Positions 6,952 through 30,920 of a DNA stretch of 34,207 nucleotides are shown here, piece after piece. A model generated the notes under the pieces. The model did no database searches, had not been told where the DNA came from, and worked only from the letters and a program-made list of their open reading frames with translations. Numbering within the stretch: position 1 is the first letter of the stretch; every line of letters begins with the position of its first letter. The DNA is from Candidatus Saccharimonadota bacterium. Lineage in GTDB: Bacteria; Patescibacteriota; Saccharimonadia; Saccharimonadales; UBA4665. The translations under genes and the position numbers were made by a program. Location: assembly GCA_003164595.1 (NCBI GenBank), contig PLTT01000004.1, positions 1-34,207 on the forward strand, given 5' to 3'.

Positions 6952-7251
6952 ATGATCAATAATTCTGCGCCGAGAATGACGCCGAAGCCTTCTTTGGGTG
7001 CGGTAAGCACTCAAAACAAGGATGGCCGAGTTGTCTTTATGGGGGCTGTCATAGATATGACATGGCAGCTTGCTATTGTTGTGCTTATACCAATTGTTGG
7101 TGGTTATAAGCTCGATCAGCATTTCAAGACTACGCCGCTTTGGCTACTTGTTGGCTGTGCCTTGGCTATTGCCGGGACAGTCGCCGTGTTACGCCGAATT
7201 CTATCTGGGCTTAATCAGAGTTTTACCCATCCCGGAGAAACTAAGAAATGA
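6952..7251 (+). CDS. atpZ: ATP synthase accessory protein, AtpZ/AtpI family
   Basis: This protein of about 99 residues has two membrane helices and the family segment GGYKLDQHFKTTPLW (Gly-x-x-Leu-Asp ... Thr-x-Pro) between them. AtpI/AtpZ proteins help assemble the c ring or act as small Mg2+/Ca2+ transporters in other bacteria. It is the first gene of the atp operon. The start is ATG 6952, because the upstream TTG falls in the -35 box. Its TGA stop overlaps the atpB start in an ATGA, which implies translational coupling. Confidence 0.75.
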   Translation: MINNSAPRMTPKPSLGAVSTQNKDGRVVFMGAVIDMTWQLAIVVLIPIVGGYKLDQHFKTTPLWLLVGCALAIAGTVAVLRRILSGLNQSFTHPGETKK

Positions 7252-8072
7252 GATCCTTATTCGCCGATTCTAGTCCAGCAGTTCACATTGCCCCTGGCGG
7301 CGTGTTCCATCTTGGCGGCCTGACTATTACCAACTCGATCTTTTATGGCTGGATATGCTCGGTAGTTCTAATAATTACTTTCATCTGGGTTGCCAGGAAG
7401 ATAACCGTTAAGCCAAAAGGCGGTTTTATCCAGTTCGTTGAAGTCGGCGCTGACTTTATAACCAATTTGGTGGTCAATGCCTTTGACGATAAGAAAAAGG
7501 GGCGAAAGTATGTTCCCTACTTCGTGACACTATTCTTCTTCATCTTGTTTAATAACTGGCTGGGGCTGGTGCCCGGTGTCGGTGAAGGGGTCCACGTCGG
7601 TAGCTTACCACTGCTTCGACCGTTTACCGGAGATCTTAATGCTACTCTAGCTATCGGTTTGATCACCATGCTTGTGGTTTACGGTTCTTCGATCCGTGAA
7701 TCTGGCAGTATTCGCAATTACTTACGCCATTTCTTCGTCGGTAACCCACTCAACCCACTGTATCTCATTATTGGGCTGCTGGAGATGTTAACCGATCTAA
7801 CCAGAGTTTTTAGTCTGTCGCTTCGACTTTTCCTCAATATTGCCATTGGCGAAATTGTTATAGCCGTCTTCTCTTACCTGGGGCACGTACTGGCACCGGC
7901 TACCGCCCTGCCGTTTACCCTGCTCGAATTATTTGTTGGTGCTTTGCAGGCCTATATCTTCTGTGTCCTGAGCGTAAACTACCTGGCTATCGCCGTTAAC
8001 CATGCCCACCACGACTTGACTGAGGAGGACGTTCCTGAAACAATTGGGATGGAAATGGAAACCAATGGTTAA
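7248..8072 (+). CDS. atpB: F-type ATP synthase subunit a
   Basis: This 274-residue membrane subunit forms the proton half-channels against the c ring. The essential arginine is in SLRLFLNIAIGE (Arg193), equivalent to aArg210 of E. coli. The FFFILFNNWLGLVPG segment (about 96-110) is also characteristic. Five or more membrane helices are evident and length is normal. The start overlaps the stop of atpZ (ATGA). The C-terminus is acidic and extends beyond the last helix. Confidence 0.95.
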   Translation: MRSLFADSSPAVHIAPGGVFHLGGLTITNSIFYGWICSVVLIITFIWVARKITVKPKGGFIQFVEVGADFITNLVVNAFDDKKKGRKYVPYFVTLFFFILFNNWLGLVPGVGEGVHVGSLPLLRPFTGDLNATLAIGLITMLVVYGSSIRESGSIRNYLRHFFVGNPLNPLYLIIGLLEMLTDLTRVFSLSLRLFLNIAIGEIVIAVFSYLGHVLAPATALPFTLLELFVGALQAYIFCVLSVNYLAIAVNHAHHDLTEEDVPETIGMEMETNG

Positions 8073-8136
8073 GGGGTGGTTATGATTTTAGTTGTTAAAA
8101 AATTTAAGTTTAATTAATAAGGAGAAGGAAAATAAT

Positions 8137-8370
8137 ATGGTATCACTAATCGCATCTACAGTAGACACAGCCATCATAGGTAAAGGACTTATGATCGGCG
8201 GCGGTTTCATCGGGCCGGGAATCGGCATTGGCTTAATCGGCGGTAACTATTTGGCCGCAGTTGGTCGTAATCCAGAAGCTGCTAAGTTCTTAGGTCAAGC
8301 ATTGGTCTTCGTGGCTATTGCTGAGCTCTTCGGCTTACTAGCCTTCGCTTCAATATTCATCGTTAAATAA
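8137..8370 (+). CDS. atpE: F-type ATP synthase subunit c
   Basis: This 77-residue hairpin has two membrane helices: the first is glycine-rich (GGGFIGPGIGIGLIGG), the loop is RNPE (Arg44-Asn45-Pro46), and the second carries the ion-binding Glu63 in AIAELFGLLAF. The residue after the glutamate is Leu, and helix 1 lacks the Gln of sodium-binding rings, so a proton-translocating ring is expected. The ATG at 8137 is chosen because AAGGAGAAGG lies just upstream; an in-frame start at 8092 would add a non-conserved polar extension. The strong Shine-Dalgarno sequence fits the high copy number of this subunit. Confidence 0.95.
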   Translation: MVSLIASTVDTAIIGKGLMIGGGFIGPGIGIGLIGGNYLAAVGRNPEAAKFLGQALVFVAIAELFGLLAFASIFIVK

Positions 8371-8387
8371 GGACTTTAGAAAGATAT

Positions 8388-8924
8388 ATGTTTCTATCTC
8401 TACTGAATAATTTTGGTGACAGTTCGTCCGGTCTGGGCGCGCTTGGCATAAACGCCTCGGCGTTTGTTATCCAACTTATTACATTTATCCTGGTATTCCT
8501 AGTGCTTAGGCAATGGGCTTTTAAACCAATCCTAAAGATCCTGAATGAACGACGTGAGACGATTGAAAAAGGCGTTAAACTTGGTCAAGAAATGGCTGAG
8601 GAAAAGAAGCTACTTGAAGCCAAGATAGACAAGGCTTTGCATGAAACTCGGGCTAAATCCGACAAGATTATTGCTGAAGCTCAACAAGCTGGGCGGCAGG
8701 TTATCTCCGACGCCGAGGATGCCGCCAGGGGCAAGGCTGAGAACATCATTAAAGACGCCGAGTCACGCATCAAGCAAGAAACCTCTAAGGCTTGGAAGGA
8801 TCTCCAGAAAGATCTGGCCTCACTTATATCCGAAGCAACCGAGGCTATTATTGAAGAAAAGGTTGATACCAAAAAAGATATCGAGCTTATTGATAAGGCC
8901 CTATCCAGCCGGAGAGCAGCATGA
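8388..8924 (+). CDS. atpF: F-type ATP synthase subunit b
   Basis: This 178-residue peripheral stalk subunit has a single membrane helix at about residues 22-42 (AFVIQLITFILVFLVL). A long charged helix, rich in Lys, Glu and Ala, then runs to the end and is expected to form the right-handed coiled coil. The juxtamembrane FKPILKILNERR is typical. Its TGA stop overlaps the atpH start (ATGA). Confidence 0.92.
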   Translation: MFLSLLNNFGDSSSGLGALGINASAFVIQLITFILVFLVLRQWAFKPILKILNERRETIEKGVKLGQEMAEEKKLLEAKIDKALHETRAKSDKIIAEAQQAGRQVISDAEDAARGKAENIIKDAESRIKQETSKAWKDLQKDLASLISEATEAIIEEKVDTKKDIELIDKALSSRRAA

Positions 8925-9325
8925 GTAAAACCCCGCGAAGTTTGATAGCTACTACCGTTGCTGAGTGGACTCTTTCGGGTGGAATAACCAAGCGCCTGAC
9001 TCGTCAGCTAGCCGCCTATTTACTGTCTGAGAATCGAACTAGTGAACTTGATCCCTTGATGCGAGATGTTCAGGGACAATGGGCTAAGCAGGGCTATGTT
9101 AATGCCCTAGCGATTAGCGCTCACCCAATTGACGCCAAGAACCGAAGCCTTATACAAAAAGCCGTGGCACAAGCCTACCCCAAGGCCAAGACAGTTGTTA
9201 TTAGTGAAAGCCACGACGCAAGTGTCATTGGGGGCGTGCGTATTGAATTATCCGACCGACAGCTTGATCTATCGGTTGCTACCAAGCTAAATAAATTTAA
9301 ACAGTTAACTACCGGAAAGGATTAA
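8921..9325 (+). CDS. atpH: F-type ATP synthase subunit delta, short form
   Basis: This subunit links the stator stalk to the top of F1. It is only 134 residues, against about 175-180 in most bacteria. The C-terminal signature is present in IGGVRIELSDRQLDLSVATKLNKFKQL (last 35 residues). The N-terminal six-helix domain appears shortened, with about 40 residues missing. It overlaps atpF by 4 nt and is followed by atpA after 3 nt. The operon position confirms identity despite low similarity. Confidence 0.85.
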   Translation: MSKTPRSLIATTVAEWTLSGGITKRLTRQLAAYLLSENRTSELDPLMRDVQGQWAKQGYVNALAISAHPIDAKNRSLIQKAVAQAYPKAKTVVISESHDASVIGGVRIELSDRQLDLSVATKLNKFKQLTTGKD

Positions 9326-9328
9326 ACA

Positions 9329-10882
9329 GTGTCAGAATTATCGATTAAAGATTTGTCAGCCGATATCCGAGCAGCCATCGCCGAGCTGAAAACTCGACCA
9401 GAAATTGAAGATGTCGGTATTGTTACCCGTGTGGGTGATGGTATCGCTTGGATTTACGGACTAGCTAAGTGTGGTTATAACGAAATGATCGAGATTGAAG
9501 GAACTGACGGCAGCAATATTACGGCCTTCGCCTTCAACCTAGCTGAAGATGAAATTGGAACGGTATTACTTGGCGATGATGTTGATATCAAGGCCGGTGC
9601 CAAAGCCAAATTGACTGGTAAGGTCTTGGAAGTTCCAGTTGGCCCCGAGCTAGTTGGCCGAGTCGTTGATCCCTTGGGCCGTCCACTCGACGGTGGTCCG
9701 GCAATCAACGCCAAACTAAAAAGCCGTGTTGAGCAGCCAGCTCCCGGCGTACTCGACCGAAAAAGTGTTCATGAACCTTTGATGACCGGAATTACAGCTA
9801 TTGATGCTATGGTACCAATCGGCCGCGGTCAGCGTGAGCTAATCATTGGTGACCGACAGACCGGTAAGACAGCCATTGCCATTGATACGATGATAAACCA
9901 GCACCGCCAAAAAACCGGTGTGGTTAACATTTACGTGGCCGTTGGTCAGAAACTTAGTAAAGTTGCCCGACTGGTTGAGCGACTAAAGCGTGAAGGCGTC
10001 ATGGATCAAACGATTATCGTGGCCACTTCACCAGCCGACCCAGCTGCCCTGCTCTACTTGGCGCCTTATGCCGGCGTAGCTATGGGTGAATATTTCCGCG
10101 ACAACAAACAACACGCTCTGATTATCTATGATGATCTTTCCAAGCACGCTGTAGCCTACAGGCAGATGTCCCTGCTACTTCGTCGCCCACCAGGCCGCGA
10201 AGCTTATCCTGGAGACGTTTTCTACTTGCACTCACGATTACTAGAACGAGCCGCTAAACTCAATGACACGCTGGGTGCCGGCAGTCTAACAGCCTTGCCA
10301 ATTATTGAGACCCAGGCCGGAGATATTAGCGCCTATATCCCAACCAATGTTATTTCTATAACCGATGGTCAAATATTCATGGAAACCAACCTGTTCTATC
10401 AGGGTATTCGCCCAGCTATTTCGGTAGGCCTGAGTGTTTCCCGAGTTGGCGGTAATGCCCAAACTAAGGCCGTTAAGTCCGTAGCTAAGTCGCTGCGAAT
10501 TGATTTGGCCCAGTTTAGAGAGCTAGCCAGCTTCGCCCAGTTCTCAACCGATCTTGATGCCGAGACTCGTCAGCGAATTGAACGCGGACAACGCCTGACT
10601 GAACTGCTAAAACAGCCACAGTACAGCCCTTATGCTATCTGGCAAATGTACGCCAGCCTGCTAGCTGCTACCGAGGGAGTTTTTGACAAAGTACCAGTTG
10701 AAAAGATTAAACTAGCCGAGGAGAGTCTTTACCGTGAGCTAAGTTCCAAGCATGCCAAAATGATTGAGACCATCAACACCGGTAACGAACCACCAGAAGC
10801 TGACCGTAAGACAATTCTCAAAGTAGCCGAAGTAATTGCCGATTCCTATAATGAGAAAACATCCGCTAAAGAGGAAAACTAG
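9329..10882 (+). CDS. atpA: F-type ATP synthase subunit alpha
   Basis: This 517-residue non-catalytic nucleotide-binding subunit has the Walker A loop GDRQTGKT at residues 174-181. It also has the conserved [14 protein letters not shown] barrel-to-core junction (about 109-122) and the [12 protein letters not shown] and [25 protein letters not shown] stretches. Length is normal. The start is GTG at 9329, supported by AAAGGA about 8 nt upstream and 3 nt spacing from atpH. Confidence 0.97.
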
Positions 10883-10894
10883 GAAAAGAAGTTT

Positions 10895-11761
10895 ATGCCA
10901 AGTACTACTGCCCTGAAGCACCGAATCAAGTCTATTAGAAATACTAGACAGATAACCAAAGCCATGGAGCTAGTTTCGGCTAGTAAAATGCGCCGAGCTC
11001 AGGACAGGGCGAAACTTAGTCGTGATTATCAGAACGCCGCATATGATTTACTGCTGAGACTGAATAGTTTGCCAGACGTTGGCTCTCACCCGCTGTTCGC
11101 TAAGCGCAAAGTTAGTTCGCGTCTCTACGTAGTGATTACCAGTAACAGTGGCCTGGCCGGAGCCTACAACTACAATGTGCTCCGTGAGTTTACGGCGGCC
11201 TTAAAAGCCGACCGCGACTCTCAAGTTACCAGCTATGTTATTACTATCGGCCACAAAGGCGCGCAGTTTGCCCGCCGACTGGCAGGCGTACACTTACTGG
11301 CTGTTTATCCAGCTTTCGGCGACGAGCCCACTGCTAACGATATCCGTCCGGTGCTAAATACCTTAATTGATGAATACCGAGATAAGAAAATTGACGAAGC
11401 CCAGATACTCTACACGGTTTTTAAATCTAACATCTCCCAACAAGCTACCAATTTGAGTATTCTACCGGCTCACGTGACCGATGGTACTTCAGCCCCAACC
11501 ATGGCCTTCACTAATTTCGAGCCATCGCTTGAGGAAGTTCTCGATTCAGCAGCCATAAGATTGATCGAAGTTCAAATATGGCAGGCGCTGCTGGAGAGTC
11601 TGGCTTCCGAGCACTCCATGCGCATGCTGGCTATGAAGAATGCTACCGATAATGCCAACGACCTAATTGATAACCTTACTCTAGAGTTTAATACCGCCCG
11701 CCAGGCGGCAATTACGCAGGAGCTGGCTGAAATTACCGGTGGAGCCGAGGCTATAAAATAA
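10895..11761 (+). CDS. atpG: F-type ATP synthase subunit gamma
   Basis: This 288-residue rotor shaft has the conserved N-terminal helix (LKHRIKSIRNTRQITKAMELVSASKMRRAQ region) and C-terminal helix (NATDNANDLIDNLTLEFNTARQ region), which pair as the central coiled coil. Length is normal and no plant-type regulatory cysteine insert is seen. It starts with ATG after AGGAAAAG, 12 nt past the atpA stop. Confidence 0.95.
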   Translation: MPSTTALKHRIKSIRNTRQITKAMELVSASKMRRAQDRAKLSRDYQNAAYDLLLRLNSLPDVGSHPLFAKRKVSSRLYVVITSNSGLAGAYNYNVLREFTAALKADRDSQVTSYVITIGHKGAQFARRLAGVHLLAVYPAFGDEPTANDIRPVLNTLIDEYRDKKIDEAQILYTVFKSNISQQATNLSILPAHVTDGTSAPTMAFTNFEPSLEEVLDSAAIRLIEVQIWQALLESLASEHSMRMLAMKNATDNANDLIDNLTLEFNTARQAAITQELAEITGGAEAIK

Positions 11762-11790
11762 TGAATCTATTTAATGCTAACAACTGCTAA

Positions 11791-13197
<1,407 letters not shown>

Positions 13198-13205
13198 GTC
13201 TAACT

Positions 13206-13634
13206 ATGATTCATTTTCAGCTATTTACGCTCAGCGGTAAGAAATTCGATCAAGACGTCTATGAAGTCGTCTTGCCGACGCTTGATGGCCGGATTGGCGT
13301 AATGCCGGGGCACATGCCTCTGGTGTCAGTGGCCACTACCGGTATTATTTCAATTCGTCATGACCAGAAAGACTCTGATCTAAAGCTGGATAACTTTGCG
13401 ACTTACGGCGGTATCATAGAAGTTGAAAACGATAATCTACGAGTTCTCGTTGATGAGGCTGATCATTCCGACGAGATCAACGAGGCTGAAGCTAAGGCGT
13501 CGTTTGAGCGTGCTAAAAAGATGTTAGCTGAAGCTAAGAACCAAACTAGCCTAGAACATGCCCAAACTTTGATTGATCGACAAACTGTTCGTTTGCAGGT
13601 TGCTCAGTTACGCAGACGTATTCCCCGCCGATAA
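13206..13634 (+). CDS. atpC: F-type ATP synthase subunit epsilon
   Basis: This 142-residue subunit has the N-terminal beta-sandwich with GRIGVMPGHMPLVS (about residues 29-42) and a C-terminal helical hairpin rich in Ala, Glu and Lys, which in other bacteria can inhibit ATP hydrolysis. It is the last structural gene of the operon, 8 nt after atpD. I see no hairpin terminator directly after it; the next gene has its own -10 box. Confidence 0.93.
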   Translation: MIHFQLFTLSGKKFDQDVYEVVLPTLDGRIGVMPGHMPLVSVATTGIISIRHDQKDSDLKLDNFATYGGIIEVENDNLRVLVDEADHSDEINEAEAKASFERAKKMLAEAKNQTSLEHAQTLIDRQTVRLQVAQLRRRIPRR

Positions 13635-15528: not shown

Positions 15529-15557
15529 TTGTGATATTTGTCACATCGTGCTAATAT
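15529..15557 (+). promoter_or_regulatory. Promoter of the carbonic-anhydrase-like gene
   Basis: TTGTGA at 15529-15534 and TAATAT at 15552-15557 are separated by 17 nt, with TGC before the -10. The ATG at 15568 follows by 10 nt. A TTG at 15538 in the same frame lies inside the promoter spacer and is rejected as a start. Confidence 0.7.
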
Positions 15558-15567
15558 ATCGTTTGCT

Positions 15568-16443: not shown

Positions 16444-16608
16444 TCTATCAAATATGGTTTTATATTTTATAATCAGGGTGTAGAATTGTACGGTATCATT
16501 AAAACTCAAATTTGATGTGACACGGAGTAGGCAGGTATTTATTTATTATGTGTCCTCGGATATTGCTAGAGTTAATGTAAATATTAATTTTTTAAAAAAG
16601 GATTGAAC

Positions 16609-16680
16609 ATGGGCCCATTTATATTGAAAGTTATAAACACTCCAAAGAACTTAATATCTCCACGTAATATTATTAAATAG
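16609..16680 (+). CDS. Possible 23-residue leader peptide or relic of a ferredoxin subunit
   Basis: This short reading frame starts with ATG after AAAAAGGAT (Shine-Dalgarno-like) and ends 10 nt before hyfI. The peptide begins MGPFILKVIN and is basic and amphipathic. It vaguely resembles the N-terminal membrane-surface helix of HyfH/NuoI-type ferredoxin subunits, which are otherwise missing from this operon, but 23 residues cannot prove this. The remaining 16444-16608 holds only a TATAAT (16468-16473) that could be the operon promoter. Confidence 0.3.
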   Translation: MGPFILKVINTPKNLISPRNIIK

Positions 16681-16690
16681 GTTCTGACAG

Positions 16691-17149
16691 ATGACTGGCA
16701 TGGAGAGAAAAATTGAGGAGCGTGTAAAGAAATTATTTCGGGGCTCATTGGCTATCCGTCAAATTGATGCAGGTTCAGATAATGCTGTCGAACAAGAGCT
16801 AAACGCCCTAACCAATAATTTTTATGACATATCGAGATTTGGTATACATTTTGTCGCCTCGCCTCGCCACGCCGACATGTTAATGGTCAGCGGCCCGGTA
16901 ACCCGCAATATGAGAAAGGCCCTGGAGCACGCCTACCGCGCAACTCCCGAACCTAAGATTGTTGTTGCCGTTGGCGATGATGCCATCGACGGAGGTATCT
17001 TTAAGGGTTCTTATGGCGTTTACGATGGAGTCAGCTCGGTTATTCCGGTAGATTATACGATTCCCGGAGACCCGCCTTCTCCGCTTGTTATCTTGCGCTC
17101 TCTGCTTGAGATTCTAGATAAAGTAGATGATAGTAGGACGAAAGAATAA
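16691..17149 (+). CDS. hyfI: Hydrogenase-4/NuoB-like small subunit lacking all cluster cysteines
   Basis: This 152-residue protein aligns with HyfI/NuoB throughout. GSCNGCE appears as GSDNAVE (30-34), FVASPRHADMLMVSGPVTRNMRKAL is nearly canonical, GDCA is GDDA (95-98), and IPGCPPSP is IPGDPPSP. The four ligands of the N2-type 4Fe-4S cluster are therefore Asp30, Val33, Asp97 and Asp127. No cluster can bind in the usual way. The surrounding motifs are intact, so the protein is maintained, probably as a structural or metal-binding subunit of the connecting arm. It is the first gene of a six-gene operon, and the next gene starts after 1 nt. ATG 16691 is used; ATG 16700 is an alternative. Confidence 0.88.
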   Translation: MTGMERKIEERVKKLFRGSLAIRQIDAGSDNAVEQELNALTNNFYDISRFGIHFVASPRHADMLMVSGPVTRNMRKALEHAYRATPEPKIVVAVGDDAIDGGIFKGSYGVYDGVSSVIPVDYTIPGDPPSPLVILRSLLEILDKVDDSRTKE

Positions 17150-17150
17150 T

Positions 17151-19193
17151 ATGCTAGCTTCAATCGTATCTCCAAGCGGCTTAATTATTTTGTTTTCAAT
17201 CTTTGGTATTGGCGGAATTGGGACTACCCTGCTGCGAGGTAATAACAGAGCACAAAATCTTTGGGCGCATATTTTTTCTATTACCGGCGCACTTTGGGGG
17301 CTGATATTTGCTGCCTCCGCTTTAATTAGTAACCGTGAGTTTTACGTCAATGGTCTTGCTACCAGTTTCCCGTTCCTATCGCTTAGCTTTCATATCGATA
17401 AGCTATCCAGTCTTTTTATAATTATTATTTGTCTGAGCGTTTTATTTTGCTCGATTTACGGCATAGGCTACGTTAAATCGTTTTATGGTAGGTATAACGT
17501 TGGTAATTATGGATTTTTCTACAACCTCTTCATAGCCGCTATGTTGGCCGTAGTAACGTCCTCGAACGGGATTTTATTCTTGTTCGCTTGGGAGATTATG
17601 TCACTAGCCAGTTATTTTTTGGTGGTCTACGAACGACACGATCATAAGAACGTCAAAGCCGGCTATCTATACCTGATCATGACTCATGCCGCCACAGCTC
17701 TAATTACCCTGGCTTTCATTTTACTTTTCAACCACGCTCATTCATTCGATTTTAACACTATCAGGGCAAGCGTTCCGAGTATGTCTATGGCTCTCAAGAA
17801 TATTGTCTTCTTGCTGGCTTTCGTTGGTTTTGGCACCAAGGCTGGTATCATTCCCTTCCATATCTGGCTACCAGCGGCTCACCCGGCTGCACCGTCGCAT
17901 GTTTCGGCGTTAATGTCTGGGGTCATGATTAAGACCGGTATCTATATGATGATCCGTTTGTTCCTGGGTATCCTACTGCCTATACCGCTGTGGTGGGGTT
18001 TGACGCTGATTATTGTCGGGTCTATCTCCTGTGTTTTGGGAGTGCTCTACGCCCTAACTGAGCATGATATCAAGCGACTACTGGCTTATCACAGTATAGA
18101 AAATATTGGCATTATCCTTCTCGGTCTTGGTGGTGCGATGGTATTCTATTCTCTGCACCTCCCGACTCTGATGCTTTTGTCGCTAGCGGCTGCTCTATTC
18201 CACACTTGGAATCATGCGACGTTTAAGTCGCTATTATTTCTAGCTGCTGGCTCTGTAGCTTTGGCTACCGGCACCAAGAATATTGAGAAGTATGGTGGGC
18301 TGATTAAAAGCATGCCGCAGACGGCGATCCTATTTCTAATTGGAGCTATGGCCATCTCAGCCCTCCCGCCGTTCAATGGTTTTTATAGCGAGTGGCTAAC
18401 TTTTCAGTCGTTAATACACGGGGTACTATCTGGTGATATATTGGTTAAATGGGTCTTCCTGGGCGGACTGGTGTCGCTTGCCCTAGCCGGTGGTCTGGCA
18501 CTGGCCTGCTTCGTTAAGGCTTTTGGTTCGACATTCCTAGCTAGGCCAAGATCGGTCATGGCCAAGGGGGCTAAGGAAGTGTCAATCTGGATGCGCAGCG
18601 GGATGGCTGGTTTGGCTGTCTTATGTCTGGTACTTGGCGTGGCATCAGCCTACATTATTAAGTCACTAGAGAGCCTCGGCCGGGAGATAACTGCCTCACC
18701 ACGCGCCGGCCTAATTACGAGTGTCTCCAGCCGGCAGACGCTGCAAATTGGTCATAATTTTGGGTCAATCTCCGCCCCCTTTATTACGGTAGTCGCAGTC
18801 GCTACGCCACTGCTCGTTTGGTTTGTTTCTAGGTACTTCATTAATCGTCATCAAAAGATTACCTCGAGCCCAACTTGGGACTGTGGAACCGACATTACGC
18901 CGCGAATGGAAATAACCTCAACTGGTTTTGCCCGTTCTCTTACAATGATCTTCCAGCCACTGCTTCGTTCTAATTTGTCATATGACACTGCGCCTGCTGG
19001 CTCTCTTGCCCCAACTTCTATTGTGGCCACCGTCGGTATTGTCGACATCTACAAGAAATATATCTACGGCCGGATGTATAGCCTGATCAATATCCTGTCG
19101 ATTTACTTTAAGAAGATTCAAAACGGCAACATCAACGCCTATATTTTGTATATCCTCCTAGCATTAATAATAGCTTTGGCGATGGGAATCTAG
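17151..19193 (+). CDS. hyfB: Hydrogenase-4 component B-like antiporter subunit (NuoL/HyfB family)
   Basis: This membrane protein of about 680 residues has about 14 or more helices and is homologous to Mrp-type antiporter subunits that carry protons in complex I. Pumping residues are retained: the Glu in FAWEIMSLASYF, the Lys in GTKAGIIPFHIWLP, the MIKTGIYMMIR segment, and the Lys in HATFKSLLFLAAGS. The long C-terminal part contains DCGTDITPRMEITSTGFARSL, typical of HyfB. The start ATG 17151 is 1 nt after hyfI; an upstream in-frame ATG (17127) would overlap hyfI. Proton transfer should therefore be possible even though the redox arm is altered. Confidence 0.9.
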   Translation: MLASIVSPSGLIILFSIFGIGGIGTTLLRGNNRAQNLWAHIFSITGALWGLIFAASALISNREFYVNGLATSFPFLSLSFHIDKLSSLFIIIICLSVLFCSIYGIGYVKSFYGRYNVGNYGFFYNLFIAAMLAVVTSSNGILFLFAWEIMSLASYFLVVYERHDHKNVKAGYLYLIMTHAATALITLAFILLFNHAHSFDFNTIRASVPSMSMALKNIVFLLAFVGFGTKAGIIPFHIWLPAAHPAAPSHVSALMSGVMIKTGIYMMIRLFLGILLPIPLWWGLTLIIVGSISCVLGVLYALTEHDIKRLLAYHSIENIGIILLGLGGAMVFYSLHLPTLMLLSLAAALFHTWNHATFKSLLFLAAGSVALATGTKNIEKYGGLIKSMPQTAILFLIGAMAISALPPFNGFYSEWLTFQSLIHGVLSGDILVKWVFLGGLVSLALAGGLALACFVKAFGSTFLARPRSVMAKGAKEVSIWMRSGMAGLAVLCLVLGVASAYIIKSLESLGREITASPRAGLITSVSSRQTLQIGHNFGSISAPFITVVAVATPLLVWFVSRYFINRHQKITSSPTWDCGTDITPRMEITSTGFARSLTMIFQPLLRSNLSYDTAPAGSLAPTSIVATVGIVDIYKKYIYGRMYSLINILSIYFKKIQNGNINAYILYILLALIIALAMGI

Positions 19194-19196
19194 TTT

Positions 19197-20117
19197 ATGC
19201 ATATATTAGCCTGGGCATTACAGATACTGTTCGTACCGCTTCTCGCCCCCTTGGGCGTTGGCATAATTAACAAGATTAAAGCCAAGGTTCAAAGGCGTCA
19301 GGGAGCCGGTTTGTTGCAGCCTTACCGTGATATCCGAAAGCTGCTTCATAAGGATGAAGTGATTAGTGAAGATGCCTCATTTATTTTTAACATTGCGCCG
19401 TATATTGTTTTTGGAATTACTCTAATCGTTGGTGCTAGCGTTCCGCTATTTACCTCGGTTATTCACTTGCCTAGCAGCGATCTTATTACGGTCGTGCTGC
19501 TACTGGCTACTGGGACTTTCTTTTTGGCGCTAGCTGGGATGGACACCGGCAGTTCATTCGGCGGTTTTGGCTCCAGCCGTGAGATGACTCTCTCGGCATT
19601 AGTTGAAGGATTATTTATTGCTTCAATTCTAGTTCTGGTAATTCTGCACCGCACCACTAACCTTTACTTGATTGCCGGAAGCGTTCACCTGGATTACGCG
19701 GATTTAATAGCTGTAGCCTTGGCCGGAGTCAGTTTCTTTATTGTCTTACTGGCTGAAACAAACCGGTTTCCTTTTGATAACGTCGATACTCACCTGGAGC
19801 TAACAATGATTCATGAAGCGATGTTACTGGAATACTCAGGTAAAAAATTGGCCCTGATGGAATGGGCCTCGGCAAATAAATTGATAATATTTGCAGCCAT
19901 GCTGGTAAACCTATATTTCCCGGTAGGCCTGGCGTCTAATCTTCAGTTTGGAACAATAGCTCTGGCAATTACGATATTTATAGCCAAGTTACTGGTTGTT
20001 TATGTGGCGATTGCCGTGCTAGAATCGGTCATTGCCAAATTAAGGTTCTTCAGACTGCCGGGACTACTTTTCACGGCTTTCATTCTCTGCCTAATAGCTA
20101 TAGGATTGGTTAAATAA
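19197..20117 (+). CDS. hyfC: Hydrogenase-4 component C-like subunit (NuoH/HyfC family)
   Basis: This 306-residue membrane subunit sits, in complex I, at the interface between the soluble arm and the proton channels. Signature segments are AKVQRRQGAGLLQPYRDIRKLLHKDEV (about 29-55), and ETNRFPFDNVDTHLELTMIHEAMLLEYSG. The latter is the conserved acidic loop that transmits conformational energy. Length is normal and the acidic residues are retained. It overlaps the next gene by 1 nt (TAATG), so translation is coupled. Confidence 0.92.
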   Translation: MHILAWALQILFVPLLAPLGVGIINKIKAKVQRRQGAGLLQPYRDIRKLLHKDEVISEDASFIFNIAPYIVFGITLIVGASVPLFTSVIHLPSSDLITVVLLLATGTFFLALAGMDTGSSFGGFGSSREMTLSALVEGLFIASILVLVILHRTTNLYLIAGSVHLDYADLIAVALAGVSFFIVLLAETNRFPFDNVDTHLELTMIHEAMLLEYSGKKLALMEWASANKLIIFAAMLVNLYFPVGLASNLQFGTIALAITIFIAKLLVVYVAIAVLESVIAKLRFFRLPGLLFTAFILCLIAIGLVK

Positions 20118-20767
20118 TGTTAAAAATTCATTTCTTTCAAGTTACCGTCAGTGTTGTTTTCTTAAGCAGTATATATTTCCATTTAGCCAAGAGAAATATT
20201 CGGATATCAATGGTCTATGGCCTGCAGTCGGCTGGCGTAGTTGCCCTGCTTTTCTACTCATACCTGCAGAAAGGCAGCCCGCTAATTTTGGTAGTAGTGC
20301 TGGCCACTTTAGCCGTCAAAGTAATTATCGCCCCGACATTCTTCATAAGACTTATCAATAGGCACAAATTTAAGTTTGCCGTTGACCCGCACGTTAAGAT
20401 GGCTCTAGGACTAGCGATCATCGGTCTAATCTCGGGACTGGTAACTTTGCATATCTTCTCGCCCCTGACTACCATTATCCCGGCTAATCAGACGTATTTG
20501 ACTCTGGCTCTAGCGTCAATGTTAATATCCGTCTTCCTGATCGCTAATCATAAGGATGCCCTGTCGCAGATTGTCGGCATCTTATCGCTTGAGAATAGTA
20601 TTGTTGTGTTTGCAATTTTTGCCGGGTTAGACCAGTCATCAATTCTAGATCTTGGAATACTGTTTGATATTTTCGTCTGGCTGTTTGTGGCTATTGCCTT
20701 CATTTCAATGATGTATCGACATATTGGGTCTATTGACGTAACTCGAATGAAACGGCTAAAGGATTAA
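20117..20767 (+). CDS. hyfE: Hydrogenase-4 component E-like subunit (NuoK-like)
   Basis: This 216-residue membrane protein has about seven helices. The C-terminal half contains GILSLENSIVVFAIFAG, matching the conserved Glu-Asn of HyfE/NuoK (cf. the GxELMLNA motif of NuoK). It contributes to the proton path in related complexes. Its start overlaps the hyfC stop by 1 nt, and the next gene follows after 3 nt. Confidence 0.85.
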   Translation: MLKIHFFQVTVSVVFLSSIYFHLAKRNIRISMVYGLQSAGVVALLFYSYLQKGSPLILVVVLATLAVKVIIAPTFFIRLINRHKFKFAVDPHVKMALGLAIIGLISGLVTLHIFSPLTTIIPANQTYLTLALASMLISVFLIANHKDALSQIVGILSLENSIVVFAIFAGLDQSSILDLGILFDIFVWLFVAIAFISMMYRHIGSIDVTRMKRLKD

Positions 20768-20770
20768 GCG

Positions 20771-22213
20771 ATGGCACTACTCATAATCATTTTTAGCCTG
20801 GTTGCCGCCACCATTATTTGTTTAGTAAGTAAAAATGTCCGTAGCATGGTGCTGGCTTCAACCGCTGCTTTTGGGATATCGGCCGCCAGCGCCAGCCTAA
20901 TTGCCGATAAGGTTGCTAGGCATGGAGATTATGCTCCTTTTCGGTTTGTTCAGATTAATTCTCTGACAGCTATCGTTCTGCTGCTAATAATGATCGTTGG
21001 TTTCTTTTCGGCGATTTACGCCTATCCTTATCTGGCCGAGGAAGCCAATAAGAAAATTATCGGACGCACCCGAACCAAGCAGCTGTTTATTCTGCTGAAC
21101 GTCTTTATGCTGCTTCTGGTAATGGCGGTGACTGCCAGCTACCCAATTTTGTCCTGGGTTTTTCTAGAATCTACCACCCTGGCTGGGGCCTTCTTAATCA
21201 GCTTCTATAACAAACCCTCAACCATTGAAGCGGCTTGGAAATATCTAATAATCAATTCTGTCGGTTTGCTGCTAGCTTTCTTCGGAACACTGCTGTTCAT
21301 CACCAATCTCCCGGGGTCAGTGTCAAATGGCTTTGTAACTTGGAGCATTTTAGGATCTTTTGCCCCTCACTTTAATACAGTGATCACTAAAGTTGCCTTC
21401 ATCTTTATTTTAATCGGCTATGGAACGAAGGTAGGCCTGGCGCCAATGCATACCTGGAAACCGGATGCCTACTCCAAAGCTCCTGCCCCTATCGGTGCGG
21501 TCTTCTCCGGTGCTCTGATGCCAGTGGCTCTTGTTATAATCTTGAAATTCAGGGTAATCACTGACGTCGCCGTCGGTACCTCTTTCAGCCAACATCTACT
21601 GATCGCCTTTGGACTGCTATCAGTTATCGTAGCGGCCTTAAGTTTCATAACGGTCGTAAACTATAAACGGATGCTTGGCTACTCGTCCATTGAGCAGGCC
21701 GGCCTAATCACTCTTGGCTTTGGTTTCGGGGGTATTGGCAGGTACGCGGCCATACTGCAGATCATCTACCATTCACTTATAAAATCTTCCCTGTTCTTTA
21801 CTAGCGGCAATTTCCTCCTTAAATTTCATTCCAGCAAGATTAAAGTCGTTCGAGGGGCGCTCAGTGCTCTGCCAATCAGCGCCGGTCTGTTCCTAGTTGG
21901 GCTTTTGGCAGTCGCCGGATTGCCGCCATTTGGGATTTTTATCTCGGAGATTATGACAATATCTTCCGGCCTTAAACACTATATTGCCTACGCTCTAGTG
22001 GCCATGGTATTCATCGTTATTGCCTTTATCGGATTATTTAAGCAAGCCAGTAGTTTGACCCTTGGCGAAAAGCCCAAGGACATTAAAGCCGGCGAAGGTA
22101 GTCGTTGGCTGCTTTTCCCGCCGCTGGCAATTTTAGGTCTGGCCTTAGTCCTGGGGTTCTATATGCCACCATTTCTTCATACATTAATTCGTCAAGCGGT
22201 AGTGAGCCAATAG
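20771..22213 (+). CDS. hyfF: Hydrogenase-4 component F-like antiporter subunit (NuoN/HyfF family)
   Basis: This 480-residue membrane subunit has about 14 helices. Retained residues include the Glu in FLESTTLAGAFLI and the Lys in YGTKVGLAPMHTW. Also present are GYSSIEQAGLITLG, the Lys in HSLIKSSLFFTSGN, and AGLPPFGIFISE. The usual HSEAPSP is YSKAPAP, a small deviation. It is the second proton-channel subunit. The operon has no HyfD-like third antiporter. Confidence 0.9.
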   Translation: MALLIIIFSLVAATIICLVSKNVRSMVLASTAAFGISAASASLIADKVARHGDYAPFRFVQINSLTAIVLLLIMIVGFFSAIYAYPYLAEEANKKIIGRTRTKQLFILLNVFMLLLVMAVTASYPILSWVFLESTTLAGAFLISFYNKPSTIEAAWKYLIINSVGLLLAFFGTLLFITNLPGSVSNGFVTWSILGSFAPHFNTVITKVAFIFILIGYGTKVGLAPMHTWKPDAYSKAPAPIGAVFSGALMPVALVIILKFRVITDVAVGTSFSQHLLIAFGLLSVIVAALSFITVVNYKRMLGYSSIEQAGLITLGFGFGGIGRYAAILQIIYHSLIKSSLFFTSGNFLLKFHSSKIKVVRGALSALPISAGLFLVGLLAVAGLPPFGIFISEIMTISSGLKHYIAYALVAMVFIVIAFIGLFKQASSLTLGEKPKDIKAGEGSRWLLFPPLAILGLALVLGFYMPPFLHTLIRQAVVSQ

Positions 22214-22214
22214 A

Positions 22215-23774
22215 ATGACTAGAAAATATATCCCAACTAGATTTAGTAGCGTTGACCACGGTAATATTGCCACCTTTGAAGTTCAACCTAGTGAAATATT
22301 AACTGTCTTTGGGGAGTTATTGAGTAACGATAAATTAGAATTTAAACTAATTGAAGCCACCGACGAATCTAGCGATCAGGCTGGTTTTGTGATTTGGTAT
22401 ATCTTTGGAGTGCCGGGAGACAATAGTTTCATCGCTGCCTATATTAAAGTTCAAGACGGTGTCTTTCCCTCAGTGGCTTCCCTTCACCCTGGTGCCACCA
22501 ACTATGAGCGTAAAATTCAGTCTTTGTTTGGGCTCAAAGTCGATGGTATAGCTGATGAGCGACCTCTGCTGCTGCACCAGAATTGGCCCAAAGGCCTCTA
22601 TCCGCTGAGGAAAGACTTTGATTATGAGAAACGGCCAGCAGTCGCCGCCAATTCGTACGTCTTCAATCACGTCGGTGGCGAAGGAATCTATGAGATATCT
22701 GTCGGCCCAATCCACGCCGGGATTATTGAGCCTGGTCATTTTAGGTTTAGTGTCGCCGGTGAGGAGATAATGCTACTTGAACCAAAACTCGGTTATACCC
22801 ATAAAGGCAGCGAGAAGTTACTTGAACGTCTTGGGCTCGAGCAGAAGCTTAAACTATCTGAGAAAATATCTGGCGATAGCTCATTCAGCCATTCGCTGGC
22901 TTTTGTTGGTGCTGTTGAAGAGTTGGCTGGAATTAACGTACCTCGTAGGGCTGAGTACCTAAGAACTGTTTATGCTGAACTGGAGCGTTTAGCCAACCAC
23001 CTCGGCGATATTGGTTTTATTATGCTGGACGCCAGTTATAACTTCGGAGGAGCCCAAGGTGCCCGTTTGCGGGAGAGACTGATGCAGATCAATGACCATT
23101 TAAGCGGCAGCCGTTTCTTGCGTAATGTCAACGTATATGGCGGCGTAAGCAAGGATATAAGCCCCGAGCAGTCGCACGAACTGATTAAAGATCTTACGAG
23201 TATTGCTAAAGATCTCGGTCAAGTTATTGCAGTTGCTGAGAATAGCGTGACTCTGATGGGTCGGCTAAAAGGCGCCGGTACCCTTCCTAGGAAGGTGGCT
23301 GATGATCTTGGGATTATGGGACTGGCTGGCAGAGCCGTTGGCATCAAGTCTGATACGAGGGTAGATTACCCCTACGGCGCCTACGATGAAGTTGTCCTAA
23401 AGCACATAGCCCTGGAGACTGGCGGCGATGTCTATGCCAGGTTTAGCGTCAGGATAAAAGAGGTTCACTCTTCAATTGAACTAATCCTCAGCGCCCTTAA
23501 ATCAATGCCTGCCGGGCCGATTTGTGCGCAGCAGTCAACTGAACTCATACTGCGTAAAAACTCGCTGGCTATCTCTAGCGTTGAGGGCTGGCGCGGCGAG
23601 ATAATCTATTTCATTAGAACCGATAGCCGGGGGGAGATATGCCGGGTTGCTGTCAGAGATCCTTCAATGGTGAACTGGCAGGCGCTACCATATGCCGGTT
23701 TTAGACAGATGGTTCCTGACTTCCCCCTGATCAACAAGAGTTTTAATATGTCCTACAGCGGTAACGACCTATAA
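22215..23774 (+). CDS. hyfG: Hydrogenase-4 large-subunit-like protein (NuoCD-type) lacking all NiFe ligands
   Basis: This 519-residue protein fuses a NuoC-like domain (about 1-140, with NYERKIQSLFGLKVDG) to a NuoD/hydrogenase large-subunit domain that keeps VGPIHAGIIEPGHFRF (163-178), LLEPKLGYTHKGSE and RRAEYLRTVYAELERLANHLGDIG. The first NiFe motif ERICGIC is EKISGDS (216-222), so Cys becomes Ser219 and Ser222. The last motif DPCYSCTDR is NMSYSGND (511-518), so Cys becomes Ser513 and Gly516. No NiFe centre is possible. Like HyfI, it is a cofactor-free homologue in an intact operon, of the general type called Ehr in other bacteria. Electron transfer or H2 chemistry is not expected. The real reaction is unknown; it could be a structural or regulatory arm, or bind another ligand in the old active-site cavity. 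Confidence 0.88.
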   Translation: MTRKYIPTRFSSVDHGNIATFEVQPSEILTVFGELLSNDKLEFKLIEATDESSDQAGFVIWYIFGVPGDNSFIAAYIKVQDGVFPSVASLHPGATNYERKIQSLFGLKVDGIADERPLLLHQNWPKGLYPLRKDFDYEKRPAVAANSYVFNHVGGEGIYEISVGPIHAGIIEPGHFRFSVAGEEIMLLEPKLGYTHKGSEKLLERLGLEQKLKLSEKISGDSSFSHSLAFVGAVEELAGINVPRRAEYLRTVYAELERLANHLGDIGFIMLDASYNFGGAQGARLRERLMQINDHLSGSRFLRNVNVYGGVSKDISPEQSHELIKDLTSIAKDLGQVIAVAENSVTLMGRLKGAGTLPRKVADDLGIMGLAGRAVGIKSDTRVDYPYGAYDEVVLKHIALETGGDVYARFSVRIKEVHSSIELILSALKSMPAGPICAQQSTELILRKNSLAISSVEGWRGEIIYFIRTDSRGEICRVAVRDPSMVNWQALPYAGFRQMVPDFPLINKSFNMSYSGNDL

Positions 23775-27998: not shown

Positions 27999-29192
27999 TT
28001 AGTCTTTTGCGAAATTATCGCTGCACTGAGGGCAGTCTTCTTGGCTGCCGAACTCGGTAATAAACTGGCGGGAAGCTTTTTGCAAAGGCTCAAAGCTTTT
28101 AAAAGCTTTTAAATCAGCCGCTTCTCTTAGCCACCAGCCAAGACGTCCATAGATAATGTGACTTCCCCACTGGACGGCTGCCCATTTGGGGCCGGCTGGA
28201 ATGATGGTGATCGGTTGTTTGGCTATGTACTTTCTTGGTTTCTTGCCGGAAGCTCCGCGGATAAGATTACGGGCTACAAATTCGCCGTCATGAATTGCTG
28301 TTTGGGCCATACCGCTGTAGGCAGTGGCGGCGTCATCCCCAATAACATAGATATTGTCCTCGGCTTGCAGATAATCATTAACCACCACTTTGCCGTGGTC
28401 GCTCATAATAAAGTCATTGGCCTTAAAGAAGGGGTTGGTCGCCATGCCGGCTGTCCAGATTACGCTATGGCTGGTTAGTGGTTTGCCGCTGATCATCAGG
28501 CTATCGGCTGTTTCGCCCTCTACGGTCTGCCCGACGTAGATTTTTACTCCTTGGTTACGCAGCTGGTGGGCGATTGTGCGGCCCATACTTTTAGGCAGTC
28601 TTGGCAGTAACCTAGGGGCGGCTTCAACTAGATCAATGTGAGCCCGGCGGTGCCGAATGCCGTGACTAGTCATAATCTGCTTCATATAAACACTCATCGC
28701 TCCGGCCAGTTCAATACCTGTTGGTCCACCGCCAATGATGATGTAGTTGTTGTCCGGTTCCCGGCCATCGGTCAGCTGAGCATGCAGGTGTTTTTTTAGT
28801 TTCTCTACTTCCTCAATAGATTTGGTGCCGTAGGCAAATTCATCAAGTCCCTTAATTCCAAAGTAATTGGTTACTACTCCAAGCGACAGGATTAGTTTAT
28901 CGAAGTGAATCGTTTGTCCGCTCTCCAGTTTAACTTCGCGGGTATCTCTATCTAGACTTACGGCTTTACCAATAACAATGTCGATATTGGGCGTACTAAA
29001 GATGTCAGCGAAAGATAGCCTAGATTGGGCTATTCGGCCACCGGTAGCCGTATGGTACAAACTTGGGAAATACTGAAAATAGTCCTTGTCTGAAACTAGA
29101 GTAACGGCGTAACGAGAATCTTTAGCTAGATCCAGTGCGGCCTTGATCCCGCCGAAACCACCGCCAACTATAACTACGTGAGGAATTTTCAT
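27999..29192 (-). CDS. ndh: Type II NADH dehydrogenase (Ndh-2)
   Basis: This 397-residue flavoprotein oxidises NADH and passes electrons to quinone without pumping protons. The FAD dinucleotide fold is at VVIVGGGFGGIKAALDL (7-23), the NADH fold at IIIGGGPTGIELAG (about 151-164), and a flavin-binding ENIYVIGDDAA follows (about 288). The C-terminal part is amphipathic, as in membrane-associated Ndh-2. It may be the main NADH entry point, since the complex-I-like operon here cannot transfer electrons. TAAAAT (complement of 29201-29206), preceded by TGC, ends 8 nt before the ATG. A palindrome separates it from the divergent FAD-linked dehydrogenase. Confidence 0.9.
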   Translation of the reverse strand: MKIPHVVIVGGGFGGIKAALDLAKDSRYAVTLVSDKDYFQYFPSLYHTATGGRIAQSRLSFADIFSTPNIDIVIGKAVSLDRDTREVKLESGQTIHFDKLILSLGVVTNYFGIKGLDEFAYGTKSIEEVEKLKKHLHAQLTDGREPDNNYIIIGGGPTGIELAGAMSVYMKQIMTSHGIRHRRAHIDLVEAAPRLLPRLPKSMGRTIAHQLRNQGVKIYVGQTVEGETADSLMISGKPLTSHSVIWTAGMATNPFFKANDFIMSDHGKVVVNDYLQAEDNIYVIGDDAATAYSGMAQTAIHDGEFVARNLIRGASGKKPRKYIAKQPITIIPAGPKWAAVQWGSHIIYGRLGWWLREAADLKAFKSFEPLQKASRQFITEFGSQEDCPQCSDNFAKD

Positions 29193-29255: not shown

Positions 29256-30920
29256 GTGGATGAAATAAAACAAAAATTAGTTGAATCAGGCTTCGCTGGC
29301 GATATTGACGATTCGGCGACAGCTAAAGAATTTTACTCCCATGATGCCTCATTTTTTGAAGTTAGGCCGGAACTGGTTGTTAAGCCTAAAGATGGGGCTG
29401 ATGTCTCCAAGCTTGTTGCACTAGTCGCTGGCTGCAAAGCCAGCAACCCTAATCTGTCGGTTACTGCACGCTCAGCTGGAACTTGTATGTCCGGCGGCTC
29501 GATAAACGATTCTATTATTGTAGATTTTTCCAAGTACTTTACGGCTATTGAACATGTTGATGCGACCTCGGCCCAAGTTCAGCCGGGAGTCTTTTATAGG
29601 GACTTTGAGGTTGAAACTTTTAAACATAAAGCTTTGATGCCATCTTTCCCGGCTAGTCGTGATCTGTGTATGATTGGTGGCATGGTTAACAATAACGCCG
29701 GCGGAGAAAAATCCCTGGAGTTTGGTAAGACCGAGAACTTCGTTACCCAGCTTAGAGCCATCTTTGCTGACGGCGTCGAGAGAACAGTTAAGCCACTTAG
29801 TAAGACAGAGCTCAATATAGTAATGGGACAGAACAACTTTGAAGGTGAAGTCTATTCCAAGATCTTTAAGTTAGTTGATGATAATTATGATGCTATTAAG
29901 GCTGCTAAGCCGCATGTTACCAAGAACTCCACTGGCTATAACCTATGGGATGTCTGGGATCGTGAGACAGGGATATTTGATCTGACCAAACTGATTGTAG
30001 GAGCTCAAGGAACGCTATGTCTGACTACCGATGTCTGGTTTAAGCTGGTACCGCAGCGGCTGCACTCTGGACTACTAGTCCTTTTTCTAAGAGATATCGA
30101 TGACCTTGGAGAAATTATTCCAACAGTTATGGCCACTAAGCCGGCGACTTTCGAGAGTTTTGATGATGCTACGCTTTGGTTGGCGATTCGTTTTATGCCA
30201 AGCTTCTTAAAACTACTTGGTTGGAAGAAGTTTATTCATTTGCTTGTTACCCTTATACCAGATGGCGTGCAGTTACTGCGCGGTATTCCAAAGCTTATCC
30301 TGATGGTTGAATATAACGGCGACAGCGAAGAGGAAGTTCGGGAGAAGATTAAATCTCTTCACCGAAGTTTAAAACAGCACAAAGCCCGTTATGAGATTAA
30401 CGGTTTTGAAGAGGACGCCACTGAGGGCAAGAGTGAAAAGTTCTGGGTTATGCGCCGTCAGAGTTTTAACCTACTTAGATCCAAAGTTAAAGACAAGCAC
30501 ACTGCCCCGTTCATCGATGACCTGGTAGTTAATCCTCCCTACTTAACTGACTTCCTACCTCAACTTAGAAAGATTATTAAGAAGTATCAGCTGATGGCCA
30601 CGATTGCCGGGCATATGGGTGATGGCAACTTCCACATTATTCCGCTTATGAAACTGGAAGAGCCAAGCGAACGGGCTAAACTTTTACCTGCTATGAAGGA
30701 GGTCAATGATTTGGTGCTGAAATATCACGGCAGTCTAAGCGGTGAGCATAATGATGGACTGATCCGCGGGCCGTGGCTCGAGCAGATGTATGGCACCGAA
30801 GTTCTAAATCTATTTAAAGAAGCCAAAAGTATTATGGATCCGCAGGATATCTTCAACCCGCACAAGAAAACTGATGCTAATTGGGACTACAGTTTTAGTC
30901 ACATTCGTTCGCATTTTTAA
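29256..30920 (+). CDS. FAD-linked dehydrogenase, D-lactate dehydrogenase (cytochrome)/GlcD-like
   Basis: This 554-residue flavoprotein of the vanillyl-alcohol oxidase/PCMH family has an FAD-binding domain with VTARSAGTCMSGGSI (about 68-82), IGGMVNNNAGGEKSLEFG (about 142-160) and VGAQGTLC. The C-terminal oxidase domain carries AGHMGDGNFH and SGEHNDGLIRG, and it ends in MDPQDIFNPHKK. The family oxidises 2-hydroxy acids such as D-lactate or glycolate and gives electrons to quinone. No C-terminal iron-sulfur domain is fused. GTG 29256 is the start; an ATG at 29260 is out of frame. It is divergent from ndh. The actual substrate cannot be decided. Confidence 0.8.
   Translation: MDEIKQKLVESGFAGDIDDSATAKEFYSHDASFFEVRPELVVKPKDGADVSKLVALVAGCKASNPNLSVTARSAGTCMSGGSINDSIIVDFSKYFTAIEHVDATSAQVQPGVFYRDFEVETFKHKALMPSFPASRDLCMIGGMVNNNAGGEKSLEFGKTENFVTQLRAIFADGVERTVKPLSKTELNIVMGQNNFEGEVYSKIFKLVDDNYDAIKAAKPHVTKNSTGYNLWDVWDRETGIFDLTKLIVGAQGTLCLTTDVWFKLVPQRLHSGLLVLFLRDIDDLGEIIPTVMATKPATFESFDDATLWLAIRFMPSFLKLLGWKKFIHLLVTLIPDGVQLLRGIPKLILMVEYNGDSEEEVREKIKSLHRSLKQHKARYEINGFEEDATEGKSEKFWVMRRQSFNLLRSKVKDKHTAPFIDDLVVNPPYLTDFLPQLRKIIKKYQLMATIAGHMGDGNFHIIPLMKLEEPSERAKLLPAMKEVNDLVLKYHGSLSGEHNDGLIRGPWLEQMYGTEVLNLFKEAKSIMDPQDIFNPHKKTDANWDYSFSHIRSHF

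Follow-up and report, generated by a model that had tools for sequence, protein, structure and literature searches.

The window analysed here, a stretch of 34,207 nucleotides from a Candidatus Saccharimonadota genome (G000; 868 kb, 95% complete), carries a six-gene operon whose small subunit has lost all four cysteine ligands of its Fe-S cluster. This is the decisive feature of the locus, and it was absent from an earlier sequence-only reading, which had dealt with the large subunit. We propose, on the strength of sequence comparison and with about even confidence, that the six genes encode the subunits of an Ehr-type complex, within the complex I and group 4 hydrogenase superfamily, which would now operate as a redox-free transporter driven by an ion gradient. 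Ehr complexes are relatives of the group 4 hydrogenases without the Ni and Fe ligands (PMC6349859). The unusual part is the loss of the proximal-cluster ligands, the loss of the NiFe site being already known in relatives.

The large subunit lacks the NiFe ligands

The large subunit and its two altered motifs are positioned as follows:

22215..23774, + strand: large subunit, a NuoC+NuoD/HycE-like fusion of 519 aa without NiFe ligands (ORF, Pfam, HycE alignment)
22863..22880, + strand: KISGDS, at the RxCGxC position of NiFe hydrogenases (S219, S222; alignment)
23751..23768, + strand: SYSGND, at the CxxC(T/N)D position of NiFe hydrogenases (S513, G516; alignment)

The sequence-only reading had described this protein as a hydrogenase-type large subunit unable to hold a NiFe site, with Ser/Ser/Ser/Gly at the four NiFe cysteine positions and the surrounding motifs retained. 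The description is borne out by alignment to HycE of the E. coli formate hydrogenlyase (7z0s_E, E 8e-68), in which RVCGIC corresponds to KISGDS and DPCYSC to NMSYSG, with GPIHAGIIEPGHFR and FPLINKSFN preserved around them. The same alignment was used to check whether the NiFe ligands might lie elsewhere in the protein; the HycE cysteine positions fall on S219, S222, S513 and G516. The subunit contains two Cys in total, C437 and C476, and no Cys column is invariant among nine patescibacterial large-subunit homologues. A functional second large subunit, which would have overturned the claim, was searched for in the window genome, where neither a further homologue nor a PF00374 NiFe large subunit was found. 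The position of the quinone tyrosine of NuoD (Y87, as given in PMC7684303) is occupied by Gly220 in the alignment to 7z0s_E.

The earlier reading had also pointed out that the C-terminus ends right after the second motif. It does so (...NMSYSGNDL), but the absence of the C-terminal peptide had to be rejected as a sign of NiFe loss: relatives from Firmicutes and Omnitrophota with RICGAC...ELCYSCTDR stop at CTDR and lack the peptide too, which makes the feature uninformative. In two Patescibacteria loci (L120 and L122) the subunit ends in SYSAFDR or SYSGFDR, not SYSGNDL.

Comparison with Ehr large subunits, which had been recommended, recovered the same Ser/Ser/Ser/Gly state in these homologues. 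Since a replacement of this type is common to some 20 Ehr sequences spread over several phyla, the substitution is not due to chance, and the large subunits of Ehr in Proteobacteria, Methanoperedens and Rhodococcus have undergone the same change at the NiFe cysteines. Taken alone, NiFe-ligand loss in the large subunit is thus ordinary for Ehr complexes and has already been described (PMC6349859).

The small subunit has lost the proximal-cluster ligands

The first gene of the operon encodes the small subunit, in which the four ligand positions of the proximal [4Fe-4S] cluster are located at the following codons:

16691..17149, + strand: small subunit, NuoB/HyfI/HycG-like, 152 aa, zero Cys (PF01058, E 4.7e-24; best PDB relatives 7z0s_G and 6cfw_J)
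16778..16780, + strand: ligand position 1, codon GAT, D30 (Cys in Ehr relatives)
16787..16789, + strand: ligand position 2, codon GTC, V33 (Cys in Ehr relatives)
16979..16981, + strand: ligand position 3, codon GAT, D97 (Cys in Ehr relatives)
17069..17071, + strand: ligand position 4, codon GAC, D127 (Cys in Ehr relatives; Patescibacteria all have Asp or Asn)

In a seven-row alignment, Cys occupies all four positions in each of the six relatives and none of them in the window protein, and the pattern CCCC is found in all 20 Ehr relatives of the conservation alignment. The ligands lost are those of Fe-S cluster N2 of the NuoB type. The proximal [4Fe-4S] cluster is the sole redox centre of this type of operon besides the lost NiFe site; because the ligands of both are gone, there is no ligand set left for any known redox cofactor. 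No second small subunit able to supply the missing ligands was found in the window genome, and the large and the small subunit each occur once per genome. The predicted fold is nevertheless intact (AlphaFold pLDDT 94.9 from a 52-sequence alignment), and the model superimposes on MbhJ (6cfw_J) with Z 20.1 and rmsd 1.6 over 138, and on HycG (7z0s_G) with Z 19.6.

Positions 16608-16690 hold, in another frame, a leader of 23 codons (MGPFILKVINTPKNLISPRNIIK) with homology to the N-terminal end of related small subunits; it runs into a stop just before the small-subunit ORF. The frameshift may be natural or may derive from assembly; despite it, the conserved body of the protein is intact.

Distribution of the ligand loss

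Among 93 genomes from the family to which the window belongs, a search detected the complex in the window genome alone. Two further carriers were found in the order (G370 and G428, 58% identity), and ligand positions 1-4 read DVDD in the window, DCGD in G370 and DCDD in G428. A third match in the order (G388, L013/L016) was a chance match of 22 residues and was dropped. A contig scan added Magasanik-, Wildermuth-, Uhr-, Kerfeld- and Moranbacteria, with the states DCDD, DVDD, TCDD, SEGD and SEGD; the Kerfeldbacteria contig is without a small subunit.

In a sample of 380 Patescibacteria genomes, 16 had a NuoB-like match, and 12 of the matches belong to the Ehr type. Of the 12, 11 were readable, each lacking at least three ligands; the small subunit of the remaining one (G669) is partial and has Asp at position 1. 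The other four matches are more distant hydrogenase-like proteins, and the three that could be read are all CCCC. Although built from Cys-poor sequences, the profile with which the phylum was searched did recover these distant CCCC homologues. Altogether, each of the 18 readable small subunits of this type in Patescibacteria is missing three or four of the ligands, and a single Cys, at position 2, is kept in 9 of the 18 loci. The residues now found at the former ligand sites are D/S/T30, C/E/V33, D/G97 and D/N127, with Gly at position 3 in 6 of 17 sequences and Val at position 2 in two.

Outside the Patescibacteria, small subunits with four readable positions are CCCC, except for one Chloroflexi locus (L069) and some distant or unrelated matches that lack the first aligned position. 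This Chloroflexi locus (FW602_bin.22) exhibits the reverse combination: its large subunit (9443-11503) keeps the NiFe-type Cys (ACGAC...ELCYACTDR), and its small subunit (11463-12365) has lost all four proximal-cluster ligands (DADD). Most of the sequences come from metagenome assemblies, and one carrier (G636, L117) is a single-contig genome. Judged from the sequences compared, the ligand loss is a lineage trait and not an error.

In the large-subunit tree, the first nine Patescibacteria form one clade (100/100), located inside a 48-row group of Cys-less sequences (92/98). When ten more Patescibacteria were added, the G739/G676 and G625 lineages fell outside the main clade. The starred branches of the enlarged tree force at least three label changes, one of them in Chloroflexi; its backbone is weakly supported, and the number of independent losses within Patescibacteria is therefore uncertain.

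Membrane subunits and operon organisation

Between the two soluble subunits, the operon encodes four membrane proteins:

17127..19193, + strand: HyfB/NuoL-like antiporter subunit, 688 aa; E156, K238, K269, K316 and K367 conserved (NF005086, E 1.7e-194; 7z0s_C; motif alignment)
19197..20117, + strand: HyfC/NuoH-like subunit, 306 aa; Glu-rich loop THLELTMIHEAM.LEYSG conserved (PF00146, E 1.9e-44; 7z0s_D)
20117..20767, + strand: HyfE-like membrane subunit, 216 aa; K68 and E159 conserved (NF008556, E 5e-9)
20771..22213, + strand: HyfF-like antiporter subunit, 480 aa; E133, K220, K299 and K338 conserved (NF005044, E 9e-108)

The listed ion-path residues of HyfB, HyfF, HyfC and HyfE match those of redox-active relatives in a motif alignment, bar single-sequence exceptions and gaps; the residue numbers for HyfB, HyfF and HyfE were counted from the motif positions in this alignment. 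The order of the six genes is kept over phylum-level distances. The flanking genes showed neither a ferredoxin-like HyfH/A subunit nor an input module of the NuoEFG/FdhF kind, by ORF inspection and, for part of them, by Pfam. The membrane genes of the operon comprise the HyfB/C/E/F set only; an MrpE/F/G-type cation module is absent, and no Na+ site could be recognised in the complex. In the Magasanikbacteria locus L022, a frameshift near TM5, perhaps a sequence error, interrupts hyfB (962-2957).

Selection on the former cofactor sites

The identity of the small-subunit gene to that of L020 at codon positions 1, 2 and 3 is 0.68, 0.78 and 0.34, and codon-position identities indicate purifying selection in all six genes. 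Within Patescibacteria, the small-subunit columns at most four residues from a former ligand site have an entropy of 0.42 bits versus 1.10 for the rest, and the large-subunit columns near the former NiFe motif 0.65 bits versus 1.42 elsewhere. The low entropy at the former cluster and NiFe sites indicates that the pockets are still used. The sequence-only reading had considered that the cavity of the large subunit might take another ligand or serve only structure; the strong conservation of cavity and pocket, as seen in the sequences, argues against a purely structural role.

That the operon is decaying and non-functional is extremely unlikely. The split N-terminal leader of the window small subunit and the frameshifted hyfB in L022 would be expected of such decay. 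The frames are open in many genomes, including the single-contig one, and the strong purifying selection, the conserved gene order and the confidently predicted fold all stand against it.

The conservation of pocket and cavity, which is very strong, would also be compatible with an enzyme that is still redox-active, through a metal ligated by Asp, Ser, Thr or Glu, an incomplete cluster, or a quinone- or flavin-like substrate in the cavity exchanging electrons with an unlinked partner. The half of the loci that hold one Cys, together with D/T/S and D at other sites, could be read in this manner, and in MBS the proximal cluster remains functional after the loss of one Cys ligand (PMC7684303). 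However, the ligand set is variable, as the Gly and Val states at positions 3 and 2 illustrate, no Cys is invariant in either soluble subunit, and the genes around the operon, checked by ORF inspection and in part by Pfam, showed no electron-input module of the types named above. We regard a retained redox function as distinctly unlikely. A conserved alternative metal site was considered separately and is unsupported: positions 2 (V/C/E) and 3 (D/G) vary, and only position 4 is near-invariant.

Host genomes and neighbouring genes

SufBD and NifU_N are absent from the window genome, G370 and G428, and SufBD was found in none of 22 genomes of the window's order. Cluster loss in this order fits hosts that are unable to make a cluster. 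It can be hypothesised on this basis that the ligands were lost by necessity, the hosts having lost Fe-S assembly and the complex being a remnant, which would explain the ligand loss and not the role of the complex. Nevertheless, SufBD is present in 5 of 14 tested Patescibacteria carriers (G513, G606, G676, G743 and G669), which still lack the ligands, and a Chloroflexi genome has lost them as well. Loss of Fe-S assembly was therefore rejected as a full explanation and can be a partial one at most; we consider loss by necessity quite improbable.

An F-type ATP synthase operon lies upstream:

7248..13634, + strand: F-type ATP synthase operon upstream of the hydrogenase-like operon (subunits a, c, b, alpha, beta and epsilon by Pfam; delta and gamma presumed from where they lie)

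ATP synthase genes are found near the operon in five Patescibacteria loci (the window, L018, L117, L124 and L125): they adjoin the small-subunit gene directly in G428 and are close to the operon in G636, G739 and G676. The majority of loci have no such linkage. ATP synthase genes also occur near the operon in Methylovirgula (L005) and Sulfuriferula (L064). The c subunit of the window (8092-8370) has AELF at its ion site, which we take to suggest coupling of the H+ type rather than Na+. The proximity in five loci and the presumed H+-type c subunit would be consistent with a ligand-gated or structural membrane assembly (such as a proton leak, a pH valve or an ATP synthase partner) that performs no coupled transport. 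The paired Lys/Glu residues are kept in both antiporter-like subunits, which is more than a plain scaffold needs, and most loci are unlinked to ATP synthase, so that we deem such an assembly unlikely.

Among the three genomes tested (window, G370 and G428), a COX1 oxidase was found in the window genome only. Window positions 27999-29192 encode a pyridine-nucleotide oxidoreductase, possibly an NDH-2-like NADH dehydrogenase, beside an FAD-linked oxidase (29256-30920); the oxidoreductase pair and the COX1-type oxidase suggest a short aerobic chain in the window genome. Other neighbours are an aquaporin/glycerol facilitator-like protein (PF00230, 23908-24582) directly downstream of the large subunit, an ATP:corrinoid adenosyltransferase (PF02572, 6029-6598, - strand) in this 0.87 Mb genome, and a 301-aa protein without Pfam match (15538-16443) between the ATP synthase genes and the operon. 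In a Saccharibacterium, a nuoL-related gene near ndh and ATPase has been reported without recognition of a complex (PMC6031116).

Comparison with known systems

The closest relatives outside Patescibacteria are the six-gene Ehr operons of Rhodococcus, Rhizobium, Burkholderia, Variovorax and Methylovirgula. The window complex shares with Ehr the same six subunits, including Mrp antiporter-like membrane subunits and a NuoH-like subunit, and the same SGD(S/T)...SY(S/A)G replacement in the large subunit; identity to proteobacterial and Rhodococcus Ehr is 35-37% for the large and 45-56% for the small subunit. Patescibacteria moreover group with the Cys-less, not the Cys-retaining, large subunits, at the support given above, although the backbone is weak when the tree is enlarged. 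Unlike the Patescibacteria, the Ehr members found keep the proximal [4Fe-4S] cysteines. As the small subunit departs from Ehr in precisely these ligands, we classify the complex as a redox-centre-free relative of Ehr rather than as a typical member.

The group 4 [NiFe] hydrogenases (FHL, MBH) have the same fold, subunit types and membrane arm, and provide the best PDB relatives (7z0s, 6cfw), but the window complex lacks the NiFe cysteines and the proximal-cluster ligands, and no HyfH/HyfA-type ferredoxin subunit was seen in its operon. The sulfane-sulfur reductase MBS is likewise hydrogenase-like, with NiFe ligands lost and the proximal cluster altered (PMC7684303); MBS retains a catalytic three-Cys cluster, whereas the window protein has no ligand left. 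Mrp antiporters possess homologous MrpA/MrpD-like subunits with paired Lys/Glu, and in them the same membrane module is driven by cation exchange without redox cofactors (PMC7419157). Mrp has no NuoH/B/CD-like subunits, whereas the window complex keeps the hydrogenase-like arm and is without the MrpE/F/G-type module. With respiratory complex I it shares homologues of NuoB, C, D, H, L and M; it differs in having no NADH module, Fe-S chain or N2 ligands, and in the glycine at the position of NuoD Y87.

Proposed function

We propose that loss of the NiFe site, which is old, was followed in Patescibacteria lineages by loss of the proximal [4Fe-4S] cluster, and that the complex may have abandoned electron chemistry. 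It would then act as a secondary, ion-gradient-driven translocator of H+ or cations, or as a gated H+ path, in which the hydrogenase-like arm would serve as a coupling and gating cap. The acidic or polar pocket of the small subunit would have replaced the cluster and may change its charge by taking up a proton or cation where the cluster would have taken up an electron. This transporter reading is supported by the intact antiporter and E-channel residues, the conservation of fold and operon, and the nearby ATP synthase in five loci. It is also supported by the precedent of Mrp, in which the membrane module is run by cations without redox (PMC7419157). It is weakened by the single Cys in half of the loci, by the lack of an MrpE/F/G module and of a Na+ site, and by the window leader lying in another frame. 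The window lineage could represent a further step beyond the stepwise loss of NiFe ligands and the change of the proximal cluster seen in MBS (PMC7684303). More tentatively, and as a possibility that we hold to be rather doubtful in its full form, a complex-I-like machine would have reverted from being redox-driven to being ion-driven, with an acidic pocket in place of the cluster and the binding of a proton or cation in place of the arrival of an electron; this would have arisen in Patescibacteria, probably more than once.

Significance

Ehr has been described as redox-coupled (PMC6349859), and electron transport chains are considered ancestrally lacking in Patescibacteria (PMC7507113). No description of this complex in Patescibacteria was found in the open-licence literature. 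If the proposal is true, the genes of such operons in Patescibacteria would have to be read anew: their family names, of the hydrogenase or NADH-dehydrogenase type, point to respiration or H2 metabolism, which the cells could not carry out with this complex. It would also bear on the long-standing question of how, in complex I, electrons transferred at one end set ions moving at a distance: a natural, conserved version without a known redox centre would separate the ion part from the electron part and make their coupling directly testable.
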